Assembly (NCBI GenBank): GCA_945957375.1
Contig: CAMFKX010000001.1
Coordinates: forward strand, 1 to 64,000
Source: an uncultured Roseiarcus sp.
GTDB lineage: Bacteria > Pseudomonadota > Alphaproteobacteria > Rhizobiales > Beijerinckiaceae
Direction of reading: 5' to 3'
DNA: 64,000 nt
Positions 6,010-45,683 of this stretch are shown in pieces (positions within the stretch are counted from its first letter, which is position 1; the number at the start of each line of letters is the position of its first letter). Both the position numbers and the translations under genes were made by a program. The notes under the pieces were generated by a model. The model was not told the origin of the DNA and did not search any database. It saw only the letters and a list, made by a program, of their open reading frames with translations.

Positions 6010-6807
6010 ATGTCGGATGTCAAGACGCCGGCGAAACTGAGTGATCATCGTATTCTCATCGTCAATGACGACGGCATCGAAGCGCACGGAATCAAGCAGC
6101 TCGAAGAAATTGCGCGGGAGTTTACCGATGACGTTTGGGTCGTCGCGCCCGACGAGGAGAAGTCCGGCTTCTCGCATTCCATCTCGATGACGGTTCCGAT
6201 CCGCGTGCGGAAGGTCGACGATCGCCATTTCGCCATAAAGGGCACGCCGACCGACTGCGCCTTGCTCGCCATCTATGAATTCATGGGCGGACGACCTCCA
6301 ACCGTGCTGCTCTCCGGGATCAATCGCGGAGCCAATCTCGCCGAGGACATTACCTACTCCGGAACGGCTGCGGCGGCGATGGAGGGGGCGCTGCTGGGCA
6401 TTCGGTCGATTGCGCTCAGTCAGGTGTTCGAGATCGGCGGTCAGGTGCACTGGTCGACGGCTCGCCGTTTCGCGCCTGCAATCCTGGCGCGCCTGCTCGC
6501 CTGCGATTGGGAGGAGGGGAGCTTCGTCAACGTCAACTTCCCGGATGCTCCGCCGGAACTTGTGCGCGGCACCCGGGTCACCCGTCAGGGCCGCCGTTTG
6601 CCCGGCTCCTTTCGGCCTGTCCGCCGCGTCGACGAGCGTGACTTTCCTTACTACTGGATAAAACTGACCTACAAGACCGCGGAGCTCGACGAGGGCACCG
6701 ATCTCAGGGCGATTCAGGAGAACGAGGTGTCGGTGACGCCGATGCATCTCGACTTCACCTCGAAGGCCTTCCGCCATGCGCTCGACCGGGCCTTCACCGA
6801 GGCGTGA
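6010..6807 (+). CDS. SurE-family metal-dependent phosphatase (copy 1)
   Basis: SurE-like 5'/3'-nucleotidase or phosphomonoesterase, 265 residues. N-terminal ILIVNDDGIEAHG carries the paired Asp metal ligands. The family motif LLSGINRGANLAEDITYSGTAA near residue 100 supplies the Ser/Asn ligands. Housekeeping surE normally neighbours pcm and nlpD, but here the gene ends an operon with cupin and ADC-type genes. A second paralogue lies at 19623. The context suggests a catabolic phosphatase acting on a pathway phosphate ester, which is inference. It ends 14 bp inside the convergent phosphatase-like gene. Confidence 0.88.
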   Translation: MSDVKTPAKLSDHRILIVNDDGIEAHGIKQLEEIAREFTDDVWVVAPDEEKSGFSHSISMTVPIRVRKVDDRHFAIKGTPTDCALLAIYEFMGGRPPTVLLSGINRGANLAEDITYSGTAAAAMEGALLGIRSIALSQVFEIGGQVHWSTARRFAPAILARLLACDWEEGSFVNVNFPDAPPELVRGTRVTRQGRRLPGSFRPVRRVDERDFPYYWIKLTYKTAELDEGTDLRAIQENEVSVTPMHLDFTSKAFRHALDRAFTEA

Positions 6808-7564
6808 CGGGTTCGGTCAGCAGGTCGATCAATCGTCGCCGGTCGAATTCGGCGACGCCCAGCTCGCGCGTCAGATAGGCGTCGAAGGAGCCGTAGACGC
6901 GATCAATTTCGTCGAGCGCCGCTTCGAGATACTTCGGTTGCGCGGCGAGCAGGATCGTGACGACTTCCTCGGGTGTCTCCGGACCGAAAAGATGCGGAAC
7001 CGGGCGTCGATAGAGGTTGGTCAGGTTGTAGTCCTCGATCACGGTTTCGCGCGCGACGCCGAGCGCGAGCAGGAGCAGCGCCGCCGCGAACCCTGTCCGA
7101 TCTTTTCCGCTGGTGCAGTGAAGCAGCAGCGGATAGCTCCCGGGATCAAGGGCGACGGCGAAAGTCTGTCGATATTCGGGCGTATGATCGACGCAGAACA
7201 GCCGATATTGCGCGATGACCCGCCGTTCGAGCTCGGGCGACCGGATTGTTCCGGCCTTGACCTGCGCCAGCATTTCGAGCGTCCCGGCGGGAATGAAGCC
7301 CGCCTCCATCATCCGGATCGACGAGCCGGGCGGCAGCCGGTCGGGACTGGCTTCTCGCTCCATCGGTAGCCGAAAATCGATCAGCGCCCTCAGGCCCAGA
7401 CTTTCGAGGCGGGCAAGGTCGGCGTCGGTCAGACCGGCGAGATTGTCGGCGCGATAGACCCGTCCCCATCGGGTCCGCCGGTCGGCGCCGGCGGCGTAGC
7501 CGCCAAGGTCACGAAAATTGACGGCCCCTTCGAAGGGAATGCGTCGTCGATCGTCTGTCTGCAT
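6794..7564 (-). CDS. Tyrosine-phosphatase-like (Y_phosphatase3) protein
   Basis: Cysteine-dependent phosphatase fold, 256 residues. Near the N-terminus FEGAVNFRDLGGYAA is the family signature, and the P-loop HCTSGKDRTG (CX5R) near residue 150 carries the nucleophilic Cys and Arg. Bacterial relatives act on phosphotyrosine or on small phosphate and phosphoinositide esters. The ATG at 7564 has GGGAG eight bases upstream; a TTG five codons earlier is an alternative. It is last in the operon SDR-ADC-phosphatase. Together with two SurE genes it makes three phosphatase-type genes in one catabolic block, which is unusual. Confidence 0.85.
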   Translation of the reverse strand: MQTDDRRRIPFEGAVNFRDLGGYAAGADRRTRWGRVYRADNLAGLTDADLARLESLGLRALIDFRLPMEREASPDRLPPGSSIRMMEAGFIPAGTLEMLAQVKAGTIRSPELERRVIAQYRLFCVDHTPEYRQTFAVALDPGSYPLLLHCTSGKDRTGFAAALLLLALGVARETVIEDYNLTNLYRRPVPHLFGPETPEEVVTILLAAQPKYLEAALDEIDRVYGSFDAYLTRELGVAEFDRRRLIDLLTEPVTPR

Positions 7565-7600
7565 CCGCTTGGCTCCCAATGGGCTCTTCGCGCGTCGCGA

Positions 7601-8332: not shown

Positions 8333-8354
8333 CGCCGAATCCCTTTCCCGTCCG

Positions 8355-9092: not shown

Positions 9093-9153
9093 CGCCGCTT
9101 CGCTCCCACTTGGACGGACCCAAAGGTCCGGACCCTTTGTCTTTCGGGCATTG

Positions 9154-10261: not shown

Positions 10262-11308
10262 TCAACTCCCGATGCGATAGGCGGTCGCGGCCGCGCCATA
10301 GAACAACGCGTGCTTTTCCTCCGGAGAGCAGCCCGCAGCGACCCGCTTGAACGCGTTCCACAGCACCGGGTAGCTGCATGCCCCCTTGTCGATAGGGAAG
10401 TTGCTCTCGAACATGCAACGTCTCGCGCCGAAAAGCTCGGTCGCCGTTTCGATATAGGGGCGAAAGGCCGCGGCGAGGACTTCCGACGTTGGCGGCAGAG
10501 CGTGGTCGGCGAAGTCGAACCCGCTGACCCGCATCGCCAGACCGCCCATCTTCACGAAGACGTTCGGGCATGCGGCAAGCTCGCCGAGCGATGTCTTCCA
10601 CGCCGCGAACACTTCCGTCCTTCGGTCCGCATAAGGGCCGACGCCGACGGGGCCTCCGAAGTGATCGAGGATGATCCGGGTGTCGGGAAAGGCGCGCGCG
10701 AGATCGCGGACTTCCCCGATCTGCGGGTGATAGACCCAGGCGTCGAACGACAGCCCCAACGGGCCCAAGGCCGCGAAGCCCCTGCGGAAGGCGCTGTCCG
10801 CGAGCAATCCCTCCGGCGGTATCGCCGAGGTCGTGCGAACGGCAGGGCTCGCATCGCGGGCCGCCGAATGCCGGATGCCCCTGAAGCGGCCGTTGCCGGC
10901 GGCAATGTGGGCCTCGAGCACGGGCCTGGCGCCATCGCCCAGCAAAAGGTCGACATGGCTCACGATCCCGGCGCAGGCCCGCGCCGGGCCATAGAGGCCG
11001 CTGGCGCTCATCGCGGCGCAGCCGTTGACGAACTCCGTTTCGCCGATCGGACGAAATTCGACCGGGCCTTCCGCGCGATACATCGCGGAGGCCTGTACGA
11101 AAACGGTCGCCTTGACGTTGTGGCCGGAATTCACGTCGGCAAGGAATTCCGGCAGGAGATAGTGATATTGCGGTCGATCCATCAGATGATGATGGGCGTC
11201 GATGATGGGCAGGTCCGGATCGATGATCTCTTCCTGCCGCTTTGCGAGCCACGCCTCGTTGATCGGCCAGTGAATGGTCGATCCGGCGACCCCGACCGGG
11301 CTGCTCAT
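10262..11308 (-). CDS. Amidohydrolase-family (PF04909) metal hydrolase
   Basis: TIM-barrel amidohydrolase of the 2-pyrone-4,6-dicarboxylate hydrolase/ACMSD group, 348 residues. IIDAHHHLMDRP near residue 35 is the metal-binding HxH start of the barrel, ILDHFGGP near residue 210 carries a conserved His, and FESNFPIDKG near residue 300 is the family's usual C-terminal motif. Members hydrolyse lactones or decarboxylate. It is the last gene of the operon with the swivel-domain and 519-residue proteins, 78 bp after the latter, so it probably acts on the product of that system or a lactone derived from it. The substrate is unknown. Confidence 0.87.
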   Translation of the reverse strand: MSSPVGVAGSTIHWPINEAWLAKRQEEIIDPDLPIIDAHHHLMDRPQYHYLLPEFLADVNSGHNVKATVFVQASAMYRAEGPVEFRPIGETEFVNGCAAMSASGLYGPARACAGIVSHVDLLLGDGARPVLEAHIAAGNGRFRGIRHSAARDASPAVRTTSAIPPEGLLADSAFRRGFAALGPLGLSFDAWVYHPQIGEVRDLARAFPDTRIILDHFGGPVGVGPYADRRTEVFAAWKTSLGELAACPNVFVKMGGLAMRVSGFDFADHALPPTSEVLAAAFRPYIETATELFGARRCMFESNFPIDKGACSYPVLWNAFKRVAAGCSPEEKHALFYGAAATAYRIGS

Positions 11309-11386: not shown

Positions 11387-12946
11387 TTATCGACCGGCGA
11401 GACCGCGCTCGATGTCGGCCCGCGTCAAGCTCGCTCCCCGCCCGGAAAGCACACGAGACTGCCGCTGGGCATGCCGATAAAGCTCCTGCGCGGCTGGCTC
11501 GGCGTGGTGATAGTTGAGCCAGTAGTCATCGAGGAACCGGTTCTCGTCGTTGCATGCCGAAGGCGTGAACGCCTGCGCCGCTTGATTGTACGCGTCCTGG
11601 TCGAGAAGCCCCTTCGAGGTGCGCCATTTGCCCGACTTCGCGCCGAGGATCGAACTGCCCGGAAAAAGCGGGCCCGAGGTCCTGGTGTAGTCGCCGGTGG
11701 CGAGGACACCGTAGGGAATCGGCGAGTAGATGCGATGCGGCCGGTTGGAATGCATCGACATCACGTAGTCGTGCGCCTGCTGGCTCGGCAGCGAAACCGG
11801 ACCGAGCATTTCGGTCAGGCAGTCGCGGCCGTATTCGTCGTTGAGCAGGGGAACGAAGCGGCGGGCGCGGTCGTCGATCTCCATCCAGTCGGACTGATCG
11901 TAGACGCCGGCGATGTGGGCCAACAAGGCCGGCGCGTTGTAGTAAACGAGGGCGCCCGCTTCGATCATTTCCGAGCGCGACCACTTCGCGAAACGCTCCC
12001 ACAATCTCGCCGTCGCATTGGCGAACAGGTCCTGCAGCTTGTTGAACGTGGCCGTGAGTTCAGCCGCGTCATTCATCGACACCGGAATATAGCCGTCGGT
12101 CAGCGGATCCGAAGTGTAGAGGCCGATGGCCACGATGCTCTCGGCGCGGAATTCCGGTTTCGACTCGAAACTTCCCCAGTCGTCGACGAGATAGAAGTGC
12201 GTGTCCTTGACGACGATGGGCATGGTCAGGTTGTTGTAGGGAATATCGTCTGCGACGCCGTCGAGCCAGGGAAAGTCGCACTGCGAGAGATCGACAAAGT
12301 CGCGAACGAGCATCTCGCGATCGCCGCCAAACTTGTAGGGACCCTCGTTGCAAATGCCCATGCGGCACTCGCAATGCGAAAGGAAGGAGAACTGCGAAAT
12401 CGTCGCCATGAACCTGACCGCCGCCGTGTGGAGCGGGTCGCCGGCGACGACCGGCAGCGCATCGGCTTCGAAAATCTGCAGCTGACGCTCCGGCTGCACC
12501 TGGCTTCGATGACCAAACTCGCGGGTCATGAGATGGCCGTCGTTGCGATGGTAAGCGAGTTGAAAGCGGCGCCAGAAATCGATGACGTACATCAAGTCCT
12601 CGACGGCGTCCTCCGGCCGAACAAGCCCCATGTTGATCAACAGCTCGCGACCATTGATGTAGTAGCCGGGCATGCACCAGCCCATATTGAGCAGCGTCGT
12701 CTTGGCGCCCATGTTGCGGGCGCGATCGCCGCATTCCTCCGCGCTCATCCGCGCTTCGATCTTCCGAAGCAAGGTCGGATAGCGGTAGTAGGCGTTGAAG
12801 AACGAGAGGAGCATATAGGCGAGCGGGAACAGCTTGGATTCCTGAGTGGTCCGCGTCACGCAGAGCCACCCGATCTCGTCCGACAGCACCTGAAGCGCGT
12901 TGTTGGTTTCAAGCAATTGACGATAGGTGACGGCGTCTGAGGTCAT
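11387..12946 (-). CDS. 519-residue protein partnered with a phosphohistidine swivel protein (copy A)
   Basis: I do not recognise the family with certainty. It is 519 residues, soluble, with no signal peptide. It is clearly homologous along its whole length to the 519-residue product of 38340-39899. Shared stretches include YRQLLETNN at the N-terminus, PYNN after DFPWLDGVADD, YLVDDWGSFESKPEF near residue 270, and LLNDEYGRD near residue 390. ATG 12946 is preferred because it matches the paralogue's start exactly and has AGGA nine bases upstream. In both loci it directly follows a gene for a stand-alone phosphohistidine domain, so it may be the substrate-binding partner of a dikinase. That role is inference. 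Confidence 0.8.
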   Translation of the reverse strand: MTSDAVTYRQLLETNNALQVLSDEIGWLCVTRTTQESKLFPLAYMLLSFFNAYYRYPTLLRKIEARMSAEECGDRARNMGAKTTLLNMGWCMPGYYINGRELLINMGLVRPEDAVEDLMYVIDFWRRFQLAYHRNDGHLMTREFGHRSQVQPERQLQIFEADALPVVAGDPLHTAAVRFMATISQFSFLSHCECRMGICNEGPYKFGGDREMLVRDFVDLSQCDFPWLDGVADDIPYNNLTMPIVVKDTHFYLVDDWGSFESKPEFRAESIVAIGLYTSDPLTDGYIPVSMNDAAELTATFNKLQDLFANATARLWERFAKWSRSEMIEAGALVYYNAPALLAHIAGVYDQSDWMEIDDRARRFVPLLNDEYGRDCLTEMLGPVSLPSQQAHDYVMSMHSNRPHRIYSPIPYGVLATGDYTRTSGPLFPGSSILGAKSGKWRTSKGLLDQDAYNQAAQAFTPSACNDENRFLDDYWLNYHHAEPAAQELYRHAQRQSRVLSGRGASLTRADIERGLAGR

Positions 12947-12957
12947 CGGGCGCATTC

Positions 12958-13662
12958 CTAAACCAACTTCCACACTTCTGCCGGTTTCTCGACGCCGCTT
13001 TGATAGTCGTGAGCGGTCTTGGCGGAGGTCGACGTGTTCAGTTCGAGGCGGTCGCCGTTCTTGATTCCGCTGACCTTCGCGTTCATCAGGCAGGGAATGC
13101 CGAACTCCCTCGTCAGGATTCCGAGGTGCGAGCGCACCGTCCCGCCCATGCAGACGACGGCCTTGAAGCTTTCGAGAATCGGCGCGGTGAGCGTGCCGCC
13201 GGAGTCGTCGATGATCGCAATCGTGTCCTCCGGGACGCCATTGATCATCAGCTGGATCACGTCGTCAGCGGTATGGACATAGCGCGCCACGCCGACGACA
13301 TTATGGGGATAGGCGACGACGTTGTCGCCCTGGCCGACCTTGAGCTTGCCGTCTACGGCCTCGCTCGCGATCTCGTATTCGTCCTGCCCGCGCAGGGGCT
13401 TGTACTTTTCAGGCGCTTCTTTTGCGGAGACGGTCGCGGAAACGTCGAACCTGTAGCCGCTGGCCAGGAGATCCGACTCGATGACCTCGAAATCCTTCTG
13501 GGTGATCAGGTCGTAGCTTGATCCGAACACGAAGCTTCCCCAGTCGGCTCCTGACTCCATGAGGCGCCGCTTGACCAGCGCTCTTACCGCGGTGTGGAAG
13601 GCGCTCGGCACCGGGGTCGTTTCGGCGTGACCGAACTTCTTGCCTTCCCAGAATGCCTTCAC
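12958..13662 (-). CDS. Stand-alone PEP-utilising (phosphohistidine swivel) domain protein, copy A
   Basis: Protein of 234 residues whose C-terminal half is the mobile phosphohistidine domain of PEP synthase/PPDK-type enzymes. GGTVRSHLGILTREFGIPC carries the candidate phospho-acceptor His179. No ATP-grasp domain and no PEP-binding barrel is attached. The N-terminal ~100 residues (FHTAVRALVKRRLMESGADWGSFVFGSSYDL) match the paralogue at 37559. The start is GTG at 13662, eight bases after GGAGGA; a longer open frame upstream overlaps the next gene and is rejected. It is the first gene of the operon with the 519-residue protein. Because no dikinase ATPase is nearby, it would have to be phosphorylated by the one at 42040. 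Confidence 0.85.
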   Translation of the reverse strand: MKAFWEGKKFGHAETTPVPSAFHTAVRALVKRRLMESGADWGSFVFGSSYDLITQKDFEVIESDLLASGYRFDVSATVSAKEAPEKYKPLRGQDEYEIASEAVDGKLKVGQGDNVVAYPHNVVGVARYVHTADDVIQLMINGVPEDTIAIIDDSGGTLTAPILESFKAVVCMGGTVRSHLGILTREFGIPCLMNAKVSGIKNGDRLELNTSTSAKTAHDYQSGVEKPAEVWKLV

Positions 13663-13898: not shown

Positions 13899-14699
13899 TC
13901 AACGCGCGGAATATCCGCCGTCGATCACCAGTTCGGCGCCGGTCATGAACGACGACTCGTCGGATGCGAGGTAGACGACCGCGGCGGCGATATCGTCCGC
14001 CGTTCCCATGCGGCCGAGCGGGTGGAGCGCGGTCAGCGCAGTGCGGATCGCCTCTTCGTCGGCCTCTGCGGACGCCATCCGTTTGACCGCCGACTGGACC
14101 ATCGGCGTCCAGGTGAAGCCCGGATGGATCGAATTGATACGGACGTCGTAGCCCTTTTCGGCGCACTCGAGCGCGGTCGACTTCGTCAGAAGCCGCACGC
14201 CGCCTTTGCTTGCGCTGTAGGCGGCGGTTTCCGCCATGCCGACCAGACCCAGAATTGACGACAGGTTGACGATCGATCCCGGTCTTTGCCGCGGTCGCGA
14301 GGGCAGGGATCGCATCGCCTCGACGCCCATGCGGACGCCGAGAAAGACGCCATCGAGATTGATGCGCATCACCCCATGCCAGTCCTCGAGGCTCGTCTCG
14401 AGCAGGGGCTTGCTTGGCCCGATCCCCGCATTGTTGACGAGAACATCCAGTCTGCCGAATTCGCTCACCGTGGCGTCGATCGCCGTGCGCCACTCGCCCT
14501 CGCGGCTGACGTCATGCTTGAGGGCGATCGCGCGACGGTTCGTCCGCCGGATTTCGTCGGCGACGCTCTCCGCGCCGTCGAGATCGATGTCTGTCGCGAT
14601 GACGTGAGCGCCTTCGTGGGCAAGGGCCAGCGCGGCGGCGCGTCCGATTCCGGACGCCGCGCCGGTGACCAGAGCGATCTTGTCAGCAACCCGAGCCAT
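13899..14699 (-). CDS. SDR-family alcohol dehydrogenase
   Basis: Classical short-chain dehydrogenase, 266 residues. The cofactor motif is TGAASGIGRAAALALA (about 12-27), Asp after the second strand (ATDID) suggests NAD preference, then come NNAGIG, Ser in NLSSILG and the catalytic YSASK. It ends with TGAELVIDGGYSA. The pattern resembles cyclopentanol/cyclohexanol and 3-alpha-hydroxysteroid type dehydrogenases, so oxidation of a secondary alcohol to a ketone is plausible. It lies three bases from the next SDR upstream in the operon ADC-SDR-SDR. Confidence 0.88.
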   Translation of the reverse strand: MARVADKIALVTGAASGIGRAAALALAHEGAHVIATDIDLDGAESVADEIRRTNRRAIALKHDVSREGEWRTAIDATVSEFGRLDVLVNNAGIGPSKPLLETSLEDWHGVMRINLDGVFLGVRMGVEAMRSLPSRPRQRPGSIVNLSSILGLVGMAETAAYSASKGGVRLLTKSTALECAEKGYDVRINSIHPGFTWTPMVQSAVKRMASAEADEEAIRTALTALHPLGRMGTADDIAAAVVYLASDESSFMTGAELVIDGGYSAR

Positions 14700-14702
14700 C
14701 GA

Positions 14703-15482
14703 TCAACTCACTGTAAAGCCGCCATCGAGAACAAAGACGGCGCCATGGATGTAGCGGGCGTCCTCCGACGCCAGGAAGGCGACCAGAGCCGCCACTTCCT
14801 CCGGCTCGCCGTAGCGAAGGGCCGGAATCATCGCGCTGAACTGGGCGCGCATCTGGTCGGCGTGTCCCGGCGACAGGCCCTCTTCGAGCGAGGTCATCAT
14901 CCGGGAGGCGATCGGGCCGGGGTTGATGGAGTTCACTCGAATGCCTCGGCCGCCCCATTCGGCGGCGGCGCTGCGCGTGAGTCCGATGACGGCATGCTTG
15001 CTCGCATTGTATGCGCAGATGCCCGGCGTGCCGGTCAGTCCCGCGACGCTGGAGGTGTTGATCACCGCTCCGCCGCCGCCTGCCGCCATGACCGGGATGA
15101 CATGCTTCAGGCCTAGGAAGACGCCGACGACATTGACGTCGAGCACGCGGCGAAAATCCTCCAGGGGATATTCGGCGATGGGGCGGACCGGCCCCTCGAC
15201 CCCCGCATTGTTGAAGAAAATGTCGATGCGGCCGGTGAGTTCACGCGCGCGCGCAACGAAGCCGGCGACCGAGCCTTCATCGGTGACGTCGCCCTCGACG
15301 GTTGAGAGGTTGGGCTCCGCTGCGAACGCGTCGTGGAGCCGCCGGAGGGCCTCCCGGTCCCGATCGACCGCCACGACGCGGGCGCCGTGGGCGATCATCA
15401 GCCTGACCGTCGCCGCGCCGATCGCCCCCGCCGCGCCGGTCACGAGCGCGATCTTTCCATCGAGCCGGTTGCTGTCGAGCAT
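14703..15482 (-). CDS. SDR-family oxidoreductase
   Basis: Short-chain dehydrogenase, 259 residues, with TGAAGAIGAATVRLM at the N-terminus, VAVDRD indicating an NAD-type cofactor pocket, NNAGVEG, INTSSVAGL and catalytic YNASK. The C-terminus has IHGAVFVLDGGFTVS. It is tightly packed between the ADC gene (17 bp) and the other SDR (3 bp). Together with the neighbour it could oxidise or reduce successive hydroxyl groups of one substrate. A specific substrate cannot be assigned. Confidence 0.87.
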   Translation of the reverse strand: MLDSNRLDGKIALVTGAAGAIGAATVRLMIAHGARVVAVDRDREALRRLHDAFAAEPNLSTVEGDVTDEGSVAGFVARARELTGRIDIFFNNAGVEGPVRPIAEYPLEDFRRVLDVNVVGVFLGLKHVIPVMAAGGGGAVINTSSVAGLTGTPGICAYNASKHAVIGLTRSAAAEWGGRGIRVNSINPGPIASRMMTSLEEGLSPGHADQMRAQFSAMIPALRYGEPEEVAALVAFLASEDARYIHGAVFVLDGGFTVS

Positions 15483-15499
15483 GTCGCCAACCTCGGAGT

Positions 15500-16285
15500 T
15501 CAGCCGGCTTTCGGCAGGCTTTCGCTATCGAGCGCCGTCCAGTCGTCGAGGCGACCGTAGAGGTAGGGGACGAAAGCCTTGGCGGGTATCCGTGCAATCG
15601 TGCGCGCGCGGGCGATGAGATCGCCCTCGATGTAGCTCGCCTGGCGGAGCGTCACGACCGGAATGTCGCCGAGCGGGTCATGTACGGAAGAAGCCAGACG
15701 CAGCGACCCTGGCCCCTCCTTGCGCACCGAGAGGGCGTTGTCGAATTCCGCCAGCGTCAGAAAAGGGTCGTCCTCGCAGCCTTTGCCGTTGGACGCGGGA
15801 AAGGCCTTGATGTTGAAGTTGGCCCCGGAGGCGGTCCCCGGTCCGAGATCCTTGGACAGATCGGCGCGGATTTCGATCAGACGCACGCCGCAGCGATCGA
15901 GGTATCCGTGGATCGCGTGGCCGTTCCGCCGCAAGTCGCTGGTCGCGCGCTTCTTCGGCTCGCCGAAGAAGTCCCGCCCGAACATGATGGCATGATCGGC
16001 GTCCATGTACATGGCGAGCACGTAGGGCGCTTCGATGGCCCCGTGGCGCGCCAGCACATAGATGGCCCCGCCGGCATAATCGCCGACGCAATTCGAGCGC
16101 CAGCGGCCGACCATGGCTGTGACCAGAGGCTCGGACGCGGGTTCGAGACCGGGCGGCAGGACGGAAGCGACGAATTCGGGCGTCGTCAGGAAATCGATGG
16201 TGAGCATCTCGGAACCGACGAAGCGCGGTCGGCTCGTCACCTTTTCGATCCTGGCTATCTCCTCTGGAGTCTTTACGAATCCCAT
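15500..16285 (-). CDS. Acetoacetate decarboxylase family protein (type 1, second copy)
   Basis: ADC-like enzyme of 261 residues, the paralogue of the gene at 5147. It starts MGFVKTPEEIARIE like that gene, and carries GRDFFGEPKKRAT with Lys111-Lys112 at exactly the same residue numbers and GPGTASGANFNIKAFPA later. ATG 16285 follows GGGAGGGAG; an upstream in-frame extension would cross the operator at 16356. It leads the operon ADC-SDR-SDR. Having a near-identical enzyme in two separately controlled operons suggests that a common reaction type is needed at two pathway stages or for two substrates. Confidence 0.85.
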   Translation of the reverse strand: MGFVKTPEEIARIEKVTSRPRFVGSEMLTIDFLTTPEFVASVLPPGLEPASEPLVTAMVGRWRSNCVGDYAGGAIYVLARHGAIEAPYVLAMYMDADHAIMFGRDFFGEPKKRATSDLRRNGHAIHGYLDRCGVRLIEIRADLSKDLGPGTASGANFNIKAFPASNGKGCEDDPFLTLAEFDNALSVRKEGPGSLRLASSVHDPLGDIPVVTLRQASYIEGDLIARARTIARIPAKAFVPYLYGRLDDWTALDSESLPKAG

Positions 16286-16355
16286 GATGGGCTCCCTCCC
16301 CAGGCGGCTCTTTCGGCAGCCTGTTCTTGTGGCGCAGTCGCGTCCTGAGCCGACA

Positions 16356-16366
16356 TTGTCATACAA
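16356..16366. promoter_or_regulatory. Operator TTGTCATACAA
   Basis: TTGTCATACAA is a GntR/FadR-style palindrome with TTGT and ACAA arms. Its reverse complement is identical to the site at 9166-9176. It lies 71 bp upstream of the ADC gene start (16285, minus strand) and after the end of the AhpD-like gene, so the ADC-SDR-SDR genes probably have their own promoter. Confidence 0.6.
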
Positions 16367-16396
16367 GAATGTAAGATGCAATCGCCGCTGGCGAAC

Positions 16397-16927
16397 TCAG
16401 ATCGGGCAGGCCGTGTCTTCGAGCTGCAAGATCGCGAGCACGCGTCCAAACCCGATGTATTGCCCGGTCATCATCATCAGCTCCAAAAGCTCTCCTTTCG
16501 AGAAGTGCTGCTGGAGTTCGCGGATTATCCGATCGTCGACGGCGAAGTGATCGACGGCCATCATTTCGGCGAGACGCAACGCTGCGCGCTCCCTCGGCGA
16601 AAATTGCGCCTCTCCGGCGCGGTCGACTTCGATCGCGGCCTCGCCTTCGCTCACATGGTCCGGGTCGAGCCGCGCCGCCTTGCAAGTCTTGCAGCCGTTC
16701 AGGGTCGCGATGCGCAGACGCACCAGTTCCTTCAGCCGCGAATCCAGGAGCCCCGCGGAGGAATGAAAGGGATAGTAGAACTCGAGATAGCGTTGGAGCA
16801 GCTCCGAATTGTCGGAGAAGGCGCGCGCGACACGACGGGTCGACCAGTCATCGGGCCTCGCGCCATCGTGCAAGTTCTGGAGATATGGGGGCAGGGACGA
16901 GCTTTCGGGCAATTCGACACGAGACAT
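16397..16927 (-). CDS. Carboxymuconolactone decarboxylase/AhpD-like protein
   Basis: All-helical CMD-fold protein of 176 residues. The CxxC pair in LNGCKTCKAARL (near residue 80) is the redox motif of AhpD-type proteins, followed by ALRLAEMMA and the C-terminal LMMMTGQYIGFGRVLAIL helix. Members are alkylhydroperoxidase partners or lactone decarboxylases; the CxxC favours the thiol peroxidase branch. It is the last gene of the operon CoA ligase-crotonase-AhpD. It may handle oxidative stress linked to acyl-CoA oxidation. Confidence 0.85.
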   Translation of the reverse strand: MSRVELPESSSLPPYLQNLHDGARPDDWSTRRVARAFSDNSELLQRYLEFYYPFHSSAGLLDSRLKELVRLRIATLNGCKTCKAARLDPDHVSEGEAAIEVDRAGEAQFSPRERAALRLAEMMAVDHFAVDDRIIRELQQHFSKGELLELMMMTGQYIGFGRVLAILQLEDTACPI

Positions 16928-16961
16928 GTCTCTTCCTCCTTGGCGTGCGGCCTGATTGTCA

Positions 16962-17804
16962 TCAGACCTTGGCGTAGTGCGGTTTCCTCTTCTCGAGGAA
17001 GGCAGATAGGCCTTCGCGAAGATCGCCGTTCGCGGCGCAAAGACTCTGGTTGCGGTTTTCGAAGGCCAGCGCGATTTCCAGCGTCGGCGAGGCGAGAGCG
17101 GCCGTGAGACCCTCCTTCGTCAATCGCAATCCGAGCGGCGCGGCCCCGAGAAGCTCGCCGGCGAGGGTTTCGCCAGCCGAGCGCAGGTCCTCCGGGGCGA
17201 CGACCTGGGAGACAAGGCCGATGCGCTGCGCGCGCTCGGCATCGATGAAACGACCCGTCAGCATGAGCTCGGATGCGATCGAGCTTCCGACGAGGCGCGG
17301 CAACAGATAGCTGACCCCCACGTCGCAGGCCGAGAGGCCGACCTTGATAAATGCGGCGCTCATACGCGCGGTCGGGGTCGCAATTCGGATGTCGGAAGCG
17401 AGCGCGAGCGCAAATCCACCCCCTGCCGCGACGCCGTTGATCAGCGCCACAATCGGTTGCGGGCAGCGGCGCATGGCCAGAATGATTTCCGCCAGCCGGC
17501 GCTGGAAGTGGAAAATACGCTCGACGTCGTCGCTCGATTCGCGATCGAATTCCTTGATGTCGAGTCCTGCGCAAAATGCGCGACCGGCCCCGGTCAGCGC
17601 GACGACCCGCACCGACTCGTCGAACAACAACTCCTGAAAATAGCCGAGCAGCTCGTCGATCATCAGGGCTGTCAGGCTGTTCAGAGAGTCCGGTCGATTG
17701 AGCGTGATCGTATCGACGGGTCCGGCGCGGCTTATCCGCAGCGATCGAAACCGACGCGCTCTTGGCTTCGGAGCCGGGTCGCCCGACTTGCGTGCGGTCT
17801 TCAC
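16962..17804 (-). CDS. Enoyl-CoA hydratase/isomerase (crotonase) family protein
   Basis: Crotonase-fold enzyme, 280 residues. The oxyanion-hole motif AGRAFCAGLDIKEF is near residue 90. INGVAAGGGFALALASDIRIA shows the conserved glycines, but Phe-Ala replaces the Glu of classical hydratases (GGG-x-ELA). A second segment, AAFIKVGLSACDVGVSYLLPRLVG, also lacks the second Glu. It may therefore be an isomerase, hydrolase or dienoyl type rather than a simple hydratase. It has about 30 residues of extra N-terminal sequence. It overlaps the CoA ligase stop by four bases. Confidence 0.85.
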   Translation of the reverse strand: MKTARKSGDPAPKPRARRFRSLRISRAGPVDTITLNRPDSLNSLTALMIDELLGYFQELLFDESVRVVALTGAGRAFCAGLDIKEFDRESSDDVERIFHFQRRLAEIILAMRRCPQPIVALINGVAAGGGFALALASDIRIATPTARMSAAFIKVGLSACDVGVSYLLPRLVGSSIASELMLTGRFIDAERAQRIGLVSQVVAPEDLRSAGETLAGELLGAAPLGLRLTKEGLTAALASPTLEIALAFENRNQSLCAANGDLREGLSAFLEKRKPHYAKV

Positions 17805-19438
17805 GTCCGGGCTCTGTTCGCGATTTCACGGTCGCGCAGTTCCCGCCGCAGGATTTTGCCGGTCGCCGTCATCGGCAACGACGCGACGAACTCGATCTCC
17901 CGGGGATATTCATGGCGGGCGAGCCGGTCGCGCACCGACTCGCGAATTTCGTCGGCCAGCGCGTGCGTGGCCTCGCAGCCCGGCGCCAGCACGACAAAGG
18001 CCTTGATGATCTCGGTGCGTTCGGGATCGGGCGCCCCGATCACGGCGGCCAGCGCGACTTTGGGATGACGGACGATCGCGTCTTCGATTTCCGTGGGGCC
18101 GATCCGGTATCCGGAACTGCTGATGACGTCATCCTTGCGGCCACGAAACCACAAGTAGCCCTCGTCGTCGCTCTCCGCGAGATCGCCGGTAATCATCCAG
18201 TCGCCGACGAATTTCCCGCGGGTCGCTTCGGCGTCGCGCCAATACTCCAGCAGCATCACCGGATCCGGCCGCTTCAGCGCGAGATTGCCGACCTTGCCCG
18301 GCGAGAGCGGCGCCCCATCGTCGTCGACGATCGCGGCGACATGTCCGGGCAGCGACCGACCGAGCGAACCGTAACGGGTCGGCATGACGAGGGACGAATT
18401 GCCGATGATGCAATTCGCCTCGGTCTGCCCGAATCCTTCATTGATCGGGGCGCCGAGAGCCACCGCCATCTGCTCGTGCAGGTCCTGCCCAACCGCTTCC
18501 GAACCGCTAAGGACGACACGAAGGTCGATTGCGAAGCGGCGCTTCGCGTCTTTAACCTGACGGATCAGCTTGAGCATCGTGGGCGTCAGTAGCGTTGCGC
18601 GCACGCGGTGCTTGCCCATCATATGCAGCGCCCGCTCGGCGTCGAACGCGTTTGACCGGTACGTCAGCACCGGGAGTCCATGGAACCAGCCGGGCATCAG
18701 GATATCCATCAGGCCCGCCAGCCATGCCCAATCCGCCGGCGACCAGAGGATGTCGCCAGGCTGGGGCAGGAAGTCCATCAGGAATTCCAATCCAGGCATG
18801 TGGCCGAGCATCGAGCGGTGACCCTGCAACGCGCCTTTCGGCCAGCCGGTCGTTCCCGATGTGAAGTTGATGAAGGCGGGGGTGTCGGGAGTCAAAGACA
18901 GCGTCTCGAACGCGTCTGATGCTCGGTCAAGCGTCTCCCAGAAGGGCAGGCAACCCGGCTCCGCGCCGTCGATCAGCAGCACCTTTTCGAGGGTCGGCGC
19001 GCGTTCGCGGATTTCGGCCACTTTGGGATAGTTGGCGCGGTCGGTGATGAGCACCCGAGCTTCGGTGGTGCGGATCCGATATTCCAGGGCGTCCGCTCCG
19101 AACAACGTCGAAGTCGGGACCGAGATCATCCCCGCTTTCCAGCAGCCGACGTGGGCGACGCCGGTCGCCGGGTCTTGCCCAAGGAAAAGGACAACCCGAT
19201 CGCCGATCGCCAGGCCGCAATATTGCAGAAAGTTGGCGAACTGATTGGCCGAGCGTTGAATCTGAAGAAAGGTATAGGTCTGGACCGCCCCGTCGGCTCG
19301 CTCATGGATAAGCGCGACCCTCGTCGGGTCGCCGGCGTGTCGATCGCAAACGTCCGTTGCAATGTTGTAGCGCGCGGGCAGGCGCCATTCGAAGGCGTCG
19401 TAGACCTCCCGGTATGTGCTTCCTCGCGCGATCACCAT
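17801..19438 (-). CDS. AMP-forming acyl-CoA synthetase
   Basis: ANL-superfamily ligase, 545 residues, which activates a carboxylate with ATP and CoA. The P-loop FTSGTTGWPKGALQGH lies near residue 195, GFGQTEANCIIGN is the A5 motif, and GDLAESDDEGYLWFRGRKDDVISSSGYRIGP spans the hinge. The catalytic Lys is in MTATGKILRREL near the C-terminus. The layout resembles medium-chain/propionyl-type synthetases (AcsA-like). It is the first gene of its operon, with motif B upstream at 19465. It supplies the CoA ester for the crotonase and dehydrogenases of this region. Confidence 0.9.
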   Translation of the reverse strand: MVIARGSTYREVYDAFEWRLPARYNIATDVCDRHAGDPTRVALIHERADGAVQTYTFLQIQRSANQFANFLQYCGLAIGDRVVLFLGQDPATGVAHVGCWKAGMISVPTSTLFGADALEYRIRTTEARVLITDRANYPKVAEIRERAPTLEKVLLIDGAEPGCLPFWETLDRASDAFETLSLTPDTPAFINFTSGTTGWPKGALQGHRSMLGHMPGLEFLMDFLPQPGDILWSPADWAWLAGLMDILMPGWFHGLPVLTYRSNAFDAERALHMMGKHRVRATLLTPTMLKLIRQVKDAKRRFAIDLRVVLSGSEAVGQDLHEQMAVALGAPINEGFGQTEANCIIGNSSLVMPTRYGSLGRSLPGHVAAIVDDDGAPLSPGKVGNLALKRPDPVMLLEYWRDAEATRGKFVGDWMITGDLAESDDEGYLWFRGRKDDVISSSGYRIGPTEIEDAIVRHPKVALAAVIGAPDPERTEIIKAFVVLAPGCEATHALADEIRESVRDRLARHEYPREIEFVASLPMTATGKILRRELRDREIANRART

Positions 19439-19464
19439 GGTCGATCGAATTATCTCTTGGAGAT

Positions 19465-19502
19465 TTAAGTCAAATGTTTTAGCATATCGCCTTAAATGTC
19501 AA
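19465..19502. promoter_or_regulatory. Motif B operator between CoA ligase and SurE-TetR operons
   Basis: In minus orientation GCTAAAACATTTGACTTAA spans 19483-19465, a match to the 19-bp motif B. A minus-strand -35 TTGACA lies at 19502-19497 just upstream; the -10 is weak. The gap separates the ligase operon from the SurE-TetR-OYE operon, so the TetR gene may regulate its own transcription here. Confidence 0.6.
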
Positions 19503-19622
19503 GGCAGGATCTGGCGGATCGAATCAAGTCGAGCCTTGCGCGCCAGCAAGGATCGGCGCCCGTCGATTGCCGAGATCCGATCGCGCGAGTGATTTCGGGC
19601 GTTATTGCTAGGGAGGCGCAAC

Positions 19623-20414
19623 GTGGCTGGACCCCGCATTCTCATCACCAATGACGACGGCATCCACGCCCCCGGAATCGTGCTCCTCGAGAAAATCGCC
19701 GGGACGTTCAGCGACGATGTCTGGGTCGTCGCCCCTGAGGTCGAGAAGAGCGGCGCATCGCATTCCCTGTCGCTCGCCGACCCGATTCGCATGAGGGAGG
19801 CGGGGCCGCGACGATTCGCGATCCAGGGCACGCCAACCGATTGCGTCGTGATCGCCTGCAACCATCTGCTGAAGGAACGACAGCCCGACGTGCTGCTGTC
19901 GGGGATCAACCGTGGCCTCAACCTGGCGGAGGACATCGTCTATTCCGGAACCGTCGCCGCCGCCATGGAAGCAACGCTCCTGGGCATCAAGTCGATCGCG
20001 ATGAGCCAATGTTTTCCGCCGGGTTCGCCGGTGCCGTGGGAGACTGCGGAGCGGCACTTGCCCGGCGTCCTCCGGCATCTTGTCGACTTGCCGCTGCCCA
20101 AGGGCGTGCTGCTGAACGTCAATTTTCCTCCGGTCGCCCCGGATCAGGTCGCCGGCTTGCGAGTGACGCGGCAGGGTGTCCGCACCAAACTCGAGATTCG
20201 CGCGGACGATCGAATTGATGCGCGAGGGTTCCCGTACTTTTGGCTCAAGTTTCATCGTGAGGTCGGCGACCCCTGGTCTGACAGCGACCTCGCCGCAATC
20301 GAGGCGAACGCCGTGTCGGTAACGCCGTTGCACCTCGACCTGACCAACCATGAGACGATCCCGGCGTTGCGGAGCGCGCTCGCTGGACTCAAGCTTGACA
20401 ACGCGGGAGCCTGA
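19623..20414 (+). CDS. SurE-family metal-dependent phosphatase (copy 2)
   Basis: SurE-like phosphatase of 263 residues, paralogous to 6010-6807. ILITNDDGIHAPG carries the metal-binding Asp pair, and LLSGINRGLNLAEDIVYSGTVAAAME the Ser/Asn ligands. The start is GTG at 19623 with GGGAGG six bases upstream. It is the first gene of an operon with a TetR regulator and an OYE reductase, not with pcm or nlpD. It likely hydrolyses a phosphorylated pathway intermediate; nucleotides are an alternative substrate. Confidence 0.87.
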   Translation: MAGPRILITNDDGIHAPGIVLLEKIAGTFSDDVWVVAPEVEKSGASHSLSLADPIRMREAGPRRFAIQGTPTDCVVIACNHLLKERQPDVLLSGINRGLNLAEDIVYSGTVAAAMEATLLGIKSIAMSQCFPPGSPVPWETAERHLPGVLRHLVDLPLPKGVLLNVNFPPVAPDQVAGLRVTRQGVRTKLEIRADDRIDARGFPYFWLKFHREVGDPWSDSDLAAIEANAVSVTPLHLDLTNHETIPALRSALAGLKLDNAGA

Positions 20415-27618: not shown

Positions 27619-27626
27619 TTTCGCCG

Positions 27627-37558: not shown

Positions 37559-38302
37559 GTGGCCAAGCTTCTCGTGGACAACGACAAGTACGCCGAACCG
37601 AACACGTCGGTCGTGGTGGACGCTTACCACGCGGCGATCCACGACCTGATTCGGCGCAAGCTCGATGACGTGGGCGGCGACTGGGCCAGCTTCGTGTTCG
37701 ACAAATCCTACGACCTGGTCACGGCCGCTGAATTCGCGGCGATCGAAAAGCGGCTCCTGGCGACCGGCCACCGCTTCGACTGGTCGGCGATGATCTCGGT
37801 GCGCGAGCGCCCCGAGGCCTACAAGCCCGCGACCGGCCTTGGCGAGGACATCAAGACCTTCTCCTTCGAGCACCCGGACGCCGTCGTCGCGCCGGCCGAC
37901 GAAAACGGCCGCGAACAGCGTGGAATTGGCGACAACGTCGTCAAGCTCTCGACCAATCTGGTCGGCATCGCGCGCTACATCCGATCGAGCGATCGTGTGC
38001 TCGACCTTCTGACGTCCGGCGTTCCCGCCGATACCGTCGCGGTGATCGACGACAGCGGCGGCACGCTGACCGCTCCGATCCTCGAACAATTCAAGGGCGT
38101 GATCTGCGCCGGCGGCACGGTGCGCTCGCACCTCGGCATCCTCACTCGCGAATACGGCATTCCCTGTCTGATGAATGCGAAAATCAGCGGCATCCGGGAG
38201 GGCGACCGCGTGGAAATCGAATCCACCGCCGCCGCCAAGACCGCCGAAGCCTACCAGACCGGCGTGGAGATGACCGCCAGGATTTGGCGGCTCGCCAAAT
38301 AA
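37559..38302 (+). CDS. Stand-alone PEP-utilising (phosphohistidine swivel) domain protein, copy B
   Basis: Protein of 247 residues ending in the mobile domain of PPDK/PEP-synthase enzymes. GGTVRSHLGILTREYGIPC contains candidate phospho-acceptor His191, preceded by IDDSGGTLTAPILEQFKGV. The N-terminal half (DAYHAAIHDLIRRKLDDVGG) matches copy A at 12958 but adds a short insert near residues 95-120. The start is GTG 37559 with AGGGAGGA upstream. First gene of a nine-gene operon that also encodes a PPDK-like ATPase, so this may be a phosphoryl carrier between that ATPase and the 519-residue partner. Confidence 0.86.
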   Translation: MAKLLVDNDKYAEPNTSVVVDAYHAAIHDLIRRKLDDVGGDWASFVFDKSYDLVTAAEFAAIEKRLLATGHRFDWSAMISVRERPEAYKPATGLGEDIKTFSFEHPDAVVAPADENGREQRGIGDNVVKLSTNLVGIARYIRSSDRVLDLLTSGVPADTVAVIDDSGGTLTAPILEQFKGVICAGGTVRSHLGILTREYGIPCLMNAKISGIREGDRVEIESTAAAKTAEAYQTGVEMTARIWRLAK

Positions 38303-38339: not shown

Positions 38340-39899
38340 ATGGGATCGAGCCGCATCAGCTATTCGCAGCTTCTCGAGACCAATAATCTCATCCAGGCCA
38401 ACGCCGATGAGACCTATTGGCTCTGCGTGACGCGCACCGTTCAGGAATCGAAACTGTTTCCCGTGCCGGCCTACATGATGCTGTCCTACATGATGGCCTA
38501 CTACCGCTATCCCTCGCTCTTGCGCAAAATCGAGCAGAGCCTGTCGGCGGAGGAGATCGGCGACCGGGCGCGCAACGCCGGCATCAAGATCCAGAATCCC
38601 TCGATGGGATGGGCGCTGCCGGGGTTCTATCTGCTCGGGCGCGAGTGGCTGATCTCGCTGGGCCTGATCCGGCCGCAGGACGCCCTCGAAGACCTGGTCT
38701 ACCTGATGGACTTCTGGAAGCGCTTCCAGCTGTCGTGGCACCGCAACAACGGCCACATCACCAACAAGGAATTCGGACATCGCGGCCAGTTCCTGCCGGA
38801 ACGGACGGTGCAGGTCTTTCACGCCGACATGTACGACTGCAAGCAGGGCGACGACCTGCACGAGGCGGCGCAGGCCTTCATGGCCGCGGCGTCGCAGTAC
38901 GGCTTCCTGATCTCCTGCGAGAGCCGCATCAGCCTGCACAATTCCGGTCCGTACAAGATCGCCGAAGATCGCGAAATGATCGTGCGCGATTTCATGGACC
39001 TCTCGGAGAGCGATTTCCCGTGGCTGGACGGCGTCGCGGCCGACGTGCCTTACAACAACATCACCGTGACGATGGCGGTGAAGGACTGCCACTTCTACCT
39101 GGTGGACGACTGGGGCAGCTTCGAGTCGAAGCCCGAGTTCACCGCGGACAAGCTCGTCGGGGTCGGCCTCTACACCTCGGACACGCTCTCGGATGGCTAC
39201 GTGCCGGTGGCGATGGGCTCGCGCGAGGAACTGACCGCCTGCTTCAAGAACCTGACCGAGAAGGTGAAGGACGCCACCAACAAGCTCTGGCGCCGGCTCG
39301 CCGGCTGGTCGCGCGACCAGATGATCGACGCCGGCGCGATCACCTACTTCTCGATCGTCAAGGACCTCGCTCATGTCGCCGGCGTCTACGACGTCGACGA
39401 CTGGATGATGGTCGACGAGCGCGCCGAGCGCTTCCGACCGCTGTTCAACGACGAGTACAGCCGCGACGCGCTGGTCGGCCTGTGCATCGGCACGCACACC
39501 TCGCATCGCCTGAGCGAATACACGATGATGCAGCACTCGAACGGACCGCAGCGCCTCTATTCGCTGATCCCCTATTCCGTCCTGCAGGGCGACAGCTACA
39601 CGACGTCGTGCGGACCGGTCTATCCGGGAACGAGCCACCTGCCTGCGAAGGTCGACCGCTACAATACCACCCGCGGAATCATCGGCCTCGAAGAGTACAA
39701 CCGGCTTGCGCGCGAGGTGCGGCCGCCTGCGCTCGACCCGAAATACCGTCACCTTTGCGAGACGTGGGTCAAATACCACGCGGGCGAACCGCTCGCGGAC
39801 GAGCTCTACAAGATCGAGCAGGCGAACTCGCGCCTTCTGCGAGGCAAGGGCTCCGGCCTTCGGCGCGCGGATGTCGAGAAGCTCCGGAACGTGCGCTGA
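38340..39899 (+). CDS. 519-residue protein partnered with swivel protein (copy B)
   Basis: I do not recognise the family with certainty. It has 519 residues, exactly as copy A, with the same start (SYSQLLETNN), DFPWLDGVAADVPYNN near residue 222, FYLVDDWGSFESKPEF near residue 255 and LFNDEYSRDAL near residue 372. No signal peptide or obvious transmembrane segment. The constant neighbour is a phosphohistidine domain, and downstream are CoA ligase, PPDK-like and biotin-carboxylase genes. I infer that it binds the substrate to be phosphorylated, as the large subunit of a phenylphosphate-synthase-like enzyme might. Confidence 0.8.
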   Translation: MGSSRISYSQLLETNNLIQANADETYWLCVTRTVQESKLFPVPAYMMLSYMMAYYRYPSLLRKIEQSLSAEEIGDRARNAGIKIQNPSMGWALPGFYLLGREWLISLGLIRPQDALEDLVYLMDFWKRFQLSWHRNNGHITNKEFGHRGQFLPERTVQVFHADMYDCKQGDDLHEAAQAFMAAASQYGFLISCESRISLHNSGPYKIAEDREMIVRDFMDLSESDFPWLDGVAADVPYNNITVTMAVKDCHFYLVDDWGSFESKPEFTADKLVGVGLYTSDTLSDGYVPVAMGSREELTACFKNLTEKVKDATNKLWRRLAGWSRDQMIDAGAITYFSIVKDLAHVAGVYDVDDWMMVDERAERFRPLFNDEYSRDALVGLCIGTHTSHRLSEYTMMQHSNGPQRLYSLIPYSVLQGDSYTTSCGPVYPGTSHLPAKVDRYNTTRGIIGLEEYNRLAREVRPPALDPKYRHLCETWVKYHAGEPLADELYKIEQANSRLLRGKGSGLRRADVEKLRNVR

Positions 39900-39917: not shown

Positions 39918-41429
39918 ATGCAGATCGGCAGTCTGATACGTCGCGCCGCTGTTCACTTTGGCGACGCTCCGTGTCTTGTCGAAGGGGACCGGGTCGTCTC
40001 CTTCCGCGAGTTCGACCGCTTGACTGACCGGCTTGGAAACGCGCTGCTCGAAGCGGGTTTCACGCCCGGCGATCGCATCGGCGTGCTGTTGCCCAACGGG
40101 ATCGATTGTCTCGTCGCCTATTACGCGCTGGCCAAGTCGGGCCTGGTGCGGGTCGGCATGAATACCCGGGAGACGATCGCCAACCACGCCTTCAAACTTG
40201 CCGATAGCGGCAGCCGCGGCGTGATCCATGACATGACCGATCCGATCGCCATCGCGCGGCTCGGCGTCGAGCGGGCGATCGGCGCGCAGGAGCTCGTCGC
40301 GCTCGGCGCGGCCGGATCGGAAACGCCCTGCGCGGTCGATCGGGCTCTCGATGCCCCCTATCGCCTCGGCTACACGGGCGGGACGACGGGGCGTTCAAAG
40401 GCGGTGACGCTGACCACGCGCGGCGAGCTTTCGGAGCTTTCCGCCTTTCTCACCGACCTCACGCCCGACCTGCGGCGCGGCGAGACTTTCCTGCACGCGG
40501 CGCCCATCGCTCACGCTTCGGGGGCGTTTTTCCTGCCCTCGCTGGTCCGCGGGGTCCGCTCGCTGGTTATGTCCAAGTTCGACCCGGCGGGGTTCATCGC
40601 CATCGCGTCCCGCGAGCAATGCGAGCACACGTTCCTCGTCCCCACCATGCTTGCGATGATCCTCGAAGCGGACGGAATCGACGGCGCGACCTTTGCGCTG
40701 CGGACGATCGCCTACGGCGCCTCGCCGATGGCGCCCGCCCTGTTGAATCGGGCGGAGAAGCGGTTCGGCCGCGTCTTTGCGCAGAGCTACGGCCAGGCCG
40801 AGAGTCCGATGGTGATCACCTGCCTCAAGCCGGAGGACCATGACCGCATCGGCTCGTGCGGACGCCCCTTCACCATCGTCGACGTCGCCGTCTTCGACGA
40901 GAACGACAAGCCGCTGGGGCCTGGCGAGCGCGGCGAGATCGTCTGCCGCGGCCCGCAAACGATGGCCTACTACTGGAACAATCCCGAGGCGACGGAGACA
41001 GCGTTCCGCAACGGCTGGCTGCACACCGGCGACATCGGCTACCAGGACGCCGACGGCTTCTTCTACCTGGTCGACCGCAAGAACGACATGTTGATATCGG
41101 GCGGCTACAACGTCTATCCGCGCGAGGTCGAGGACGTTCTGCTCGCCTGCGAAGGGGTCGTCGAAGCCGCTGTCGTCGGCCTGCCGGACGAGAAATGGGG
41201 CGACCGGGTGTTCGCCGTCGTCTCGGGCCGGCCGGGCCTCGACCCCGAGCGCGTCCTCGCTCATGCGCGCGAGAGACTGGCCAGCTACAAACGCCCCAAA
41301 GGCGTCGAGATCTGGCCGGAACTGCCGAAGACCTCCGCCAACAAGATCCTGCGCCGCGCCGTGAAAGATCAGCTCGTCGAGCGGGCGAGACACGAAGCCG
41401 CTGGGGCCCATGAGGAGACGCCAACGTGA
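39918..41429 (+). CDS. AMP-forming acyl-CoA synthetase
   Basis: ANL-family ligase of 503 residues. YTGGTTGRSKAVTLT is a P-loop variant with Gly-Gly-Thr-Thr, QSYGQAESPMVITCL is A5, LHTGDIGYQDADGFFYLVDRKNDMLISGGYN spans the hinge, and PKTSANKILRRAV carries the catalytic Lys. Located inside the dikinase-carboxylase operon, it likely activates the carboxylation product as a CoA ester before thiolase cleavage. It ends with a four-base overlap onto the next gene. Confidence 0.9.
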   Translation: MQIGSLIRRAAVHFGDAPCLVEGDRVVSFREFDRLTDRLGNALLEAGFTPGDRIGVLLPNGIDCLVAYYALAKSGLVRVGMNTRETIANHAFKLADSGSRGVIHDMTDPIAIARLGVERAIGAQELVALGAAGSETPCAVDRALDAPYRLGYTGGTTGRSKAVTLTTRGELSELSAFLTDLTPDLRRGETFLHAAPIAHASGAFFLPSLVRGVRSLVMSKFDPAGFIAIASREQCEHTFLVPTMLAMILEADGIDGATFALRTIAYGASPMAPALLNRAEKRFGRVFAQSYGQAESPMVITCLKPEDHDRIGSCGRPFTIVDVAVFDENDKPLGPGERGEIVCRGPQTMAYYWNNPEATETAFRNGWLHTGDIGYQDADGFFYLVDRKNDMLISGGYNVYPREVEDVLLACEGVVEAAVVGLPDEKWGDRVFAVVSGRPGLDPERVLAHARERLASYKRPKGVEIWPELPKTSANKILRRAVKDQLVERARHEAAGAHEETPT

Positions 41430-42028
41430 ACGACATGCATCTGGTCATGCACGGGCTCGCCATCAAGAAACACGCGACGCCCGAGGACATCGCGAGCGGG
41501 ATCGGACTTGACCTCGGCTCGGTGCGCGAAACGCTGGAAAAGCTCGTCGCCGCGCGCCGCGTCGTGGAAGCCAAGGGCCGGTATCTCCTTGCGCCGGCGG
41601 CCCGCATGCTGCTCGACGCCGACTATTCGCGCTATTACGAATCCGTTCGCGCAGACCCCGCGTTCCAGGCCGGCTACGCCGGCTTCGAGCGGCTCAATGC
41701 GACCCTGAAACAGCTCATCACCGATTGGCAGACCACCACCGTGCGCGGCCAGCGCGTGTCGAACGACCACAGCGACAAGGACTACGACGCCAAGATCATC
41801 GACCGCCTCGGCGACCTGCACGAGCGTTCGGAGGAGCCGCTGGGGAAACTCGCCGCCGCCCTGCCTCGCCTGGCGATCTATCGCGACAAGCTCGAGGCGG
41901 CGCTGGACAAGGTCGAGAAGGGGTCGATCGCCTGGGTCAGCGACGCCAAGATCGAGAGCTATCATACGGTCTGGTACGAATTGCACGAAGACCTTCTGCG
42001 CCTGATGCGCCGCGAACGCACCGAATAG
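41426..42028 (+). CDS. Small protein with winged-helix-like N-terminus, function unknown
   Basis: Protein of 200 residues. Residues about 5-60 (GLAIKKHATPEDIASGIGLD, then VRETLEKLVAARRVVEAKGRYLLAP) look like a winged helix-turn-helix. The remainder is helical and charged (DYDAKIIDRLGDLHERSEEP). The start is GTG 41426, overlapping the ligase stop, eight bases after GAGGAG. It lies 11 bp before the PPDK-like gene, so it is probably its partner or regulator rather than a promoter-binding regulator of the whole block. I do not recognise a named family. Confidence 0.7.
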   Translation: MNDMHLVMHGLAIKKHATPEDIASGIGLDLGSVRETLEKLVAARRVVEAKGRYLLAPAARMLLDADYSRYYESVRADPAFQAGYAGFERLNATLKQLITDWQTTTVRGQRVSNDHSDKDYDAKIIDRLGDLHERSEEPLGKLAAALPRLAIYRDKLEAALDKVEKGSIAWVSDAKIESYHTVWYELHEDLLRLMRRERTE

Positions 42029-44312: not shown

Positions 44313-44313
44313 G

Positions 44314-45681: not shown

Positions 45682-45683
45682 TT

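Follow-up and report, generated by a model that had tools for sequence, protein, structure and literature searches.

A swivel and large-protein pair as the putative acceptor half of a split small-molecule dikinase in an uncultured Roseiarcus sp.

Described dikinases and the Roseiarcus locus

The breakdown of several aromatic compounds begins with a small-molecule dikinase. HpeHI, CreHI and PpsAB are two-component phenolic dikinases (PMC12167813, PMC9618137). In the Hpe pathway a phenolic ketone is first phosphorylated, a proven step, and then carboxylated, dephosphorylated and cleaved (PMC9618137); HpeH alone transfers phosphate from 4-phosphoacetophenone to acetovanillone (PMC12167813). VadK (Rv1127c) of Mycobacterium tuberculosis is a truncated pyruvate phosphate dikinase (PPDK) that autophosphorylates on His422; its described role is regulatory, as a kinase of the methylcitrate cycle, and no partner domain is encoded (PMC13400623).

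The window analysed here, a stretch of 64,000 nucleotides from an uncultured Roseiarcus sp., holds two pairs of genes, A and B, each encoding a swivel protein (SW) and a large protein (BIG), together with a single PPDK-like gene at 42040 (Table 1). As in HpeHI, CreHI and PpsAB, the ATP-grasp and swivel-bearing components are separate and the swivel, with its essential His, is homologous; the operon of pair A likewise has biotin-dependent carboxylase, phosphatase and CoA ligase neighbours. By analogy with the Hpe pathway, this set of kinase, biotin carboxylase, phosphatase, CoA ligase and thiolase suggests a ketone or phenol-like substrate. The architecture differs in several respects. HpeH is a single chain in which the substrate domain is followed by a C-terminal swivel, whereas here there are two genes, and the HpeH substrate domain has no similarity in BIG. 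The ATP half of HpeHI is a PEP-synthase-type ATP-grasp of ~340 aa, whereas here it is of PPDK type with its own swivel. The HpeH-type motif is T/SxxGGxxxH, whereas that of SW is GGxxxxH, with the Gly pair one residue further from the His; an HpeH-like protein encoded on contig C2 of the same genome shows the canonical HpeH form.

The 42040 product is a PPDK homologue. It scores 706.6 bits with NCBIfam NF004531, for which the cut-off is 456, and aligns to PPDK residues ~1-544 of 874, a span that takes in the ATP-grasp and carrier domains. The PEP/pyruvate domain is absent, so the protein cannot make PEP by itself. By described architecture it resembles VadK, a PPDK ATP-grasp and His domain with no pyruvate/PEP domain, but unlike VadK it is encoded together with a swivel/acceptor pair in a catabolic operon. 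Rifampin phosphotransferase (RPH) offers the closest solved swivel fold and the same three parts, ATP-grasp, acceptor domain and swivel; however, RPH is a single chain, whereas here there are three genes, and BIG is unmatched to RPH structures. What sets this system apart among small-molecule dikinases is its spread over three genes, a BIG fold without a match, and kinases and pairs that differ in number. Within the literature collection searched, no published description of the gene set was found, nor a paper on the cluster for Rhodococcus oxybenzonivorans or R. pyridinivorans P23.

Table 1. Genes of pairs A and B and their neighbours, by position in the window
Feature	Position	Strand	Remarks
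SurE phosphatase	6010-6807	+	in block 6010..7579
Tyrosine-phosphatase-family gene	6794-7579	-	in block 6010..7579
Amidohydrolase 2 family protein	10262..11308	-	directly downstream of BIG-B; Pfam PF04909
BIG-B, large protein of pair B	11387..12946	-	519 aa; would bind the substrate; 55% identity with the 38340 product
SW-B, swivel of pair B	12958..13662	-	234 aa; phospho-acceptor His179; Pfam PEP-utilizers, AF2, PDB fold
SDR, SDR, acetoacetate-decarboxylase-like (ADC), CMD, enoyl-CoA hydratase, acyl-CoA ligase	13899..19438	-	upstream of pair B; Pfam
SurE-type phosphatase	19605..20414	+	divergent from pair B gene run; Pfam PF01975
SW-A, swivel of pair A	37559..38302	+	247 aa; His191
BIG-A, large protein of pair A	38340..39899	+	519 aa
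W, 200-aa protein	41426..42028	+	accompanies PPDK-like gene in 43/44 loci; no confident family
PPDK-like kinase	42040..43824	+	594 aa; ATP-grasp and own swivel; candidate ATPase for both pairs
Biotin carrier, biotin carboxylase, PYC/OadA-type carboxyltransferase of A operon	43821..47147	+	kept with pair in at least 41/44 loci

Anatomy and surroundings of pair B

The preliminary description had read pair B as a repeat of pair A, and the alignments bear this out. Both pair B frames lie on the minus strand where it had placed them, and the order, swivel then large protein, is identical in the two pairs. SW-A and SW-B are 52% identical over 243 residues, and the alignment it had proposed, of BIG-A with BIG-B, gave 55% identity over 516 residues with gaps. 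This likeness is far beyond chance and, judged by sequence, pair B is a real paralogue of pair A. The description had also pointed to exactly 519 residues in both large proteins. The lengths are right, but their equality is a coincidence and was dropped as evidence: because the alignment is gapped, the ATG start of BIG-B at 12946 has in-frame alternatives at 12955 (522 aa) and 12973 (528 aa), and length is a family trait that spans 511-531 aa, the match is uninformative. SW-B starts at GTG 13662, preceded by an AGGAGG-like site.

SW-B consists of an N-terminal helical region of ~100 aa and a C-terminal swivel domain that matches the PEP-utilizers mobile domain of Pfam. The best PDB fold match of its AF2 model (pLDDT 87.5) was rifampin phosphotransferase (5FBT, E 5.9e-6), followed by the carrier domains of pyruvate kinase and PPDK, and in a profile comparison (hhalign) SW matched the swivel of an HpeH/PpsA-like protein set with a probability of 96.5% (E 9.9e-10). 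SW-B is thus a genuine phospho-carrier domain, nearest in fold to the rifampin phosphotransferase swivel. Its His179 lies within GGTVRSHLGIL, and the motif GG[ST]xRSHL(G/A)IL is retained in every full-length SW examined. The PPDK-like partners in turn retain GGxxSHA wherever the region is covered and recognised; in the 42040 product this is His435, in an intact GGSTSHAAV. Since the two motifs are both retained, two kinds of phospho-His coexist, unlike in HpeHI, and the His domain of the kinase itself, which the preliminary description had overlooked, means that the scheme may need a His-to-His step.

BIG belongs to no Pfam or NCBIfam family and has no sequence relative in the PDB. The AF2 model of BIG-B is confident (pLDDT 89.5, pTM 0.91) and yielded no PDB fold match (best E 1.0), RPH being absent from the fold matches listed; the profile comparison with the HpeH-like substrate domain gave a probability of 0.9%. 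A relationship of BIG to the rifampin-binding or HpeH substrate domain is therefore unsupported by sequence, fold or profile, and BIG is an undescribed family whose model, though confident, resembles no fold in the PDB. We presume that it is the substrate subunit because it constantly accompanies SW and any other acceptor domain is lacking.

As the preliminary description had claimed, pair B forms a phospho-carrier/acceptor module that lacks an ATPase. There was no ATP-grasp gene among the pair B neighbours scanned, and the sole PPDK homologue in the window, which has no acceptor domain of its own, is the 42040 gene ~28 kb away. The two halves are complementary: the 42040 product ends before the PEP domain and so needs an external acceptor, and pair B needs an external ATPase.

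The genes upstream of pair B are likely to form the same catabolic unit with it; homologues of ADC and CMD are also found close to pairs in loci L047 and L049-L051. Pair B had been called fused to an amidohydrolase operon, which is correct as to adjacency, the gap being 78 bp, but there is no gene fusion. This neighbour is peculiar to the present locus, with an amidohydrolase beside the pair in 0/44 other well-covered loci. The two pairs had further been assigned to different regulatory motifs. A promoter-like site (13839-13811) does lie upstream of SW-B, and a TTGTC stretch at 37439 upstream of pair A, but neither is clearly enriched over shuffled sequence, and shared regulatory motifs were rejected on that ground.

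A conserved gene set and the ancestry of pair B

An alignment-based scan of bacterial genomes found 136 BIG relatives, in Alpha-, Beta- and Gammaproteobacteria, Actinomycetota and one Bacillus; the genome-contig scan with BIG-B alone as query returned 0 relatives. Locus counts were taken over the 44 loci with a full-length BIG and at least 8 kb on both sides. SW was present in 44/44, the PPDK-like kinase and W in 43/44 each, acyl-CoA ligase in 42/44, carboxylase subunits in 41-43/44, and a SurE or tyrosine-phosphatase-type (Y_phosphatase3) gene in 35/44. The series SW-BIG-LIG-W-PPDK-BCCP-BC-CT is a conserved gene set. Among 385 genomes of the class, BIG occurs in 5 and a close PPDK-like kinase in 6, the kinase being present in 5/5 BIG genomes. 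W also occurs beside kinase-less pairs (L131, L132). On Rhodococcus plasmids (L012 8314-16575 and L013 8908-16575) three swivel/BIG pairs lie upstream of one PPDK-like gene, and one of these pairs is a fused chain with the swivel N-terminal.

Pair B does not stem from a recent duplication of pair A. In the BIG tree, BIG-B forms a clade with homologues from Rhodocyclaceae (L074) and Sterolibacteriaceae (L082) with support of 100/99, while BIG-A groups with Roseiarcus fermentans; the swivel tree places SW-B in the same way with support of 0.986. Such a duplication was ruled out because both B proteins group with L074 and L082 with strong support. Both of these relatives carry their own PPDK-like gene, and the 42040 product falls in the A lineage, so that a fit between 42040 and SW-B is not ensured by co-inheritance. 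In L074, the closest relative of pair B's operon, three carboxyltransferase genes lie in tandem (16037-20436).

Among the ten other Roseiarcus genomes examined, pair B was absent and an A-type BIG was found in three. The stretch that holds pair B (~9.2-27.6 kb, ~18 kb) has no counterpart in the 40 kb region of R. fermentans compared, save for the match of B to A. It is flanked by blocks that the two genomes have in common (6026-9096, 27622-31139 and 34579-56858 of the window), the first of which is moved and inverted relative to R. fermentans; the phosphatase block 6010..7579 is contiguous with the A operon there. A simple inversion that brought B beside A was ruled out, as block 27622-31139 has the same orientation as in R. 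fermentans. Given its absence from the other Roseiarcus genomes and the unmatched stretch between shared blocks, pair B was probably acquired, or retained in this lineage only, within a region shared with pair A.

If pair B came in this way, it might be a decaying remnant that has lost its kinase and its function. BIG-B is on a long branch of the tree and departs from the family at eight conserved positions, of which several are aromatic (including Y26G, Y49F, F95Y, K340A and D341L), and there is no kinase, carboxylase or W gene near the pair. However, both frames are intact and keep 93-94% of near-invariant positions (116/124 in BIG-B, 48/51 in SW-B), and the two genes are still together with promoter-like sequence upstream. 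We regard decay as improbable; an altered pocket is one possible reason for the substitutions.

Possible sources of the phosphoryl group

With high confidence we regard pair B as the acceptor half of a split dikinase for small molecules. Computation establishes the homology, the domain anatomy, the intact motifs, the lineage and the natural parallels in copy number; from there on we infer a phosphotransfer, its donor, the role of BIG as substrate subunit and the class of substrate, as follows. SW-B would act as a free-standing phosphohistidine carrier, and BIG-B would bind and present the substrate, which is probably a catabolite of the hydroxylated-ketone or phenol-like kind. The half that uses ATP would act in trans; its most likely source is the VadK-like PPDK half encoded at 42040, which would normally serve pair A. 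With ATP and Pi, the 42040 product would phosphorylate its own His435, or would reach the carrier directly; the phosphoryl group would then pass to His179 of SW-B and from there to the substrate on BIG-B, and a SurE or tyrosine-phosphatase-type enzyme would later strip it off. The 42040 product is the candidate donor that we favour for pair B, with modest confidence, and the explanation as a whole, acceptor half and trans-acting 42040 kinase together, we place just on the probable side.

The proposal of the preliminary description that one kinase may serve two acceptor systems is plausible and has natural parallels. In each of two proteobacterial MAGs, G062 (Ga0077536) and G065 (Umea MAG), a single PPDK-like kinase stands against two full-length BIG genes, the second pairs being accompanied by W, phosphatase and SDR genes with no kinase there; as these are MAGs, the missing second kinase could reflect incomplete sampling. 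In Panacagrimonas perspica (G079) the only pair (C3:105 kb) and the only such kinase (C3:462 kb) lie 357 kb apart, the kinase sitting with ligase, W and carboxylase genes. Each of four actinobacterial isolates (G094-G097) has three pairs and one kinase homologue, with the pairs clustered such that they could form one complex, and in MAG G092 there are two pairs and no kinase was found. Independent support for a shared kinase thus comes from genomes in which pairs outnumber kinases or lie far from them, so that one kinase serving several pairs is plausible and better supported.

The genome offers other candidate donors. On contig C239 a third, divergent set (L015, 3501-8528) comprises a HAD phosphatase, a short swivel, a 469-aa BIG-like protein, a 208-aa W-like protein and its own short PPDK, which reaches the contig end. 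Contig C177 has a canonical full-length PPDK frame, and contig C2 (L136, 1492-4386) encodes an HpeHI/PpsAB-like two-component dikinase, made up of a 605-aa protein with GGTMSH and a 354-aa PEP-synthase-type ATP-grasp. With these three in the same genome, 42040 is not the only conceivable donor, and pair B could be fed by the C239 short PPDK or by the C2 ATP-grasp subunit, whose genes are both present in the cell and, in the latter case, belong to a type with swivels homologous to SW. Each of them, however, adjoins a partner of its own, a divergent pair for the C239 kinase, which shares only ~48-50% identity with 42040 where the two align, and an HpeH-like protein for the C2 subunit. The 42040 gene, in contrast, is on the same contig and in the same catabolic region as pair B, and its subfamily is the only one seen to co-occur with full-length BIG. 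We consider either of these two unlikely as the donor, though this is the best of the alternatives.

Somewhat less credible is that pairs A and B together make up one mixed enzyme, to which the B proteins contribute additional subunits, and that B is not a second substrate system. The actinobacterial clusters, with three SW/BIG pairs beside one kinase, would be compatible with such an enzyme. In Roseiarcus, however, pair B belongs to a gene run of its own that includes an amidohydrolase and lies 25 kb away on the opposite strand, and pair A works without B, as other Roseiarcus genomes carry A only. We give least credence to pair B as an ATPase-free transphosphorylase that moves phosphate from the phospho-metabolite of pair A to a second metabolite via His179: HpeH alone does move phosphate between ketones (PMC12167813), so a swivel and acceptor without ATP-grasp can be catalytic, but in that known case the transfer is a side reaction of an enzyme that works reversibly, and the operons of close relatives of pair B retain a PPDK-like gene.

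A wider and more doubtful possibility is that truncated PPDKs of the VadK type act as shared hubs for phosphoryl groups, a single ATP half charging several free-standing swivels His-to-His, each with its own acceptor subunit of new fold. If true, this would amount to a PTS-like plug-in phosphorelay in which one kinase activates different carbon sources. For orphan PPDK halves of the VadK type, the target proposed here is a separate swivel protein. Because the three functions are on separate proteins and the numbers of kinases and acceptors are unequal, a common kinase is directly testable.

Further along the window, tandem and inverted repeats of ~127 bp occupy 60097-60541, and a related copy is found at the window start (14-110).
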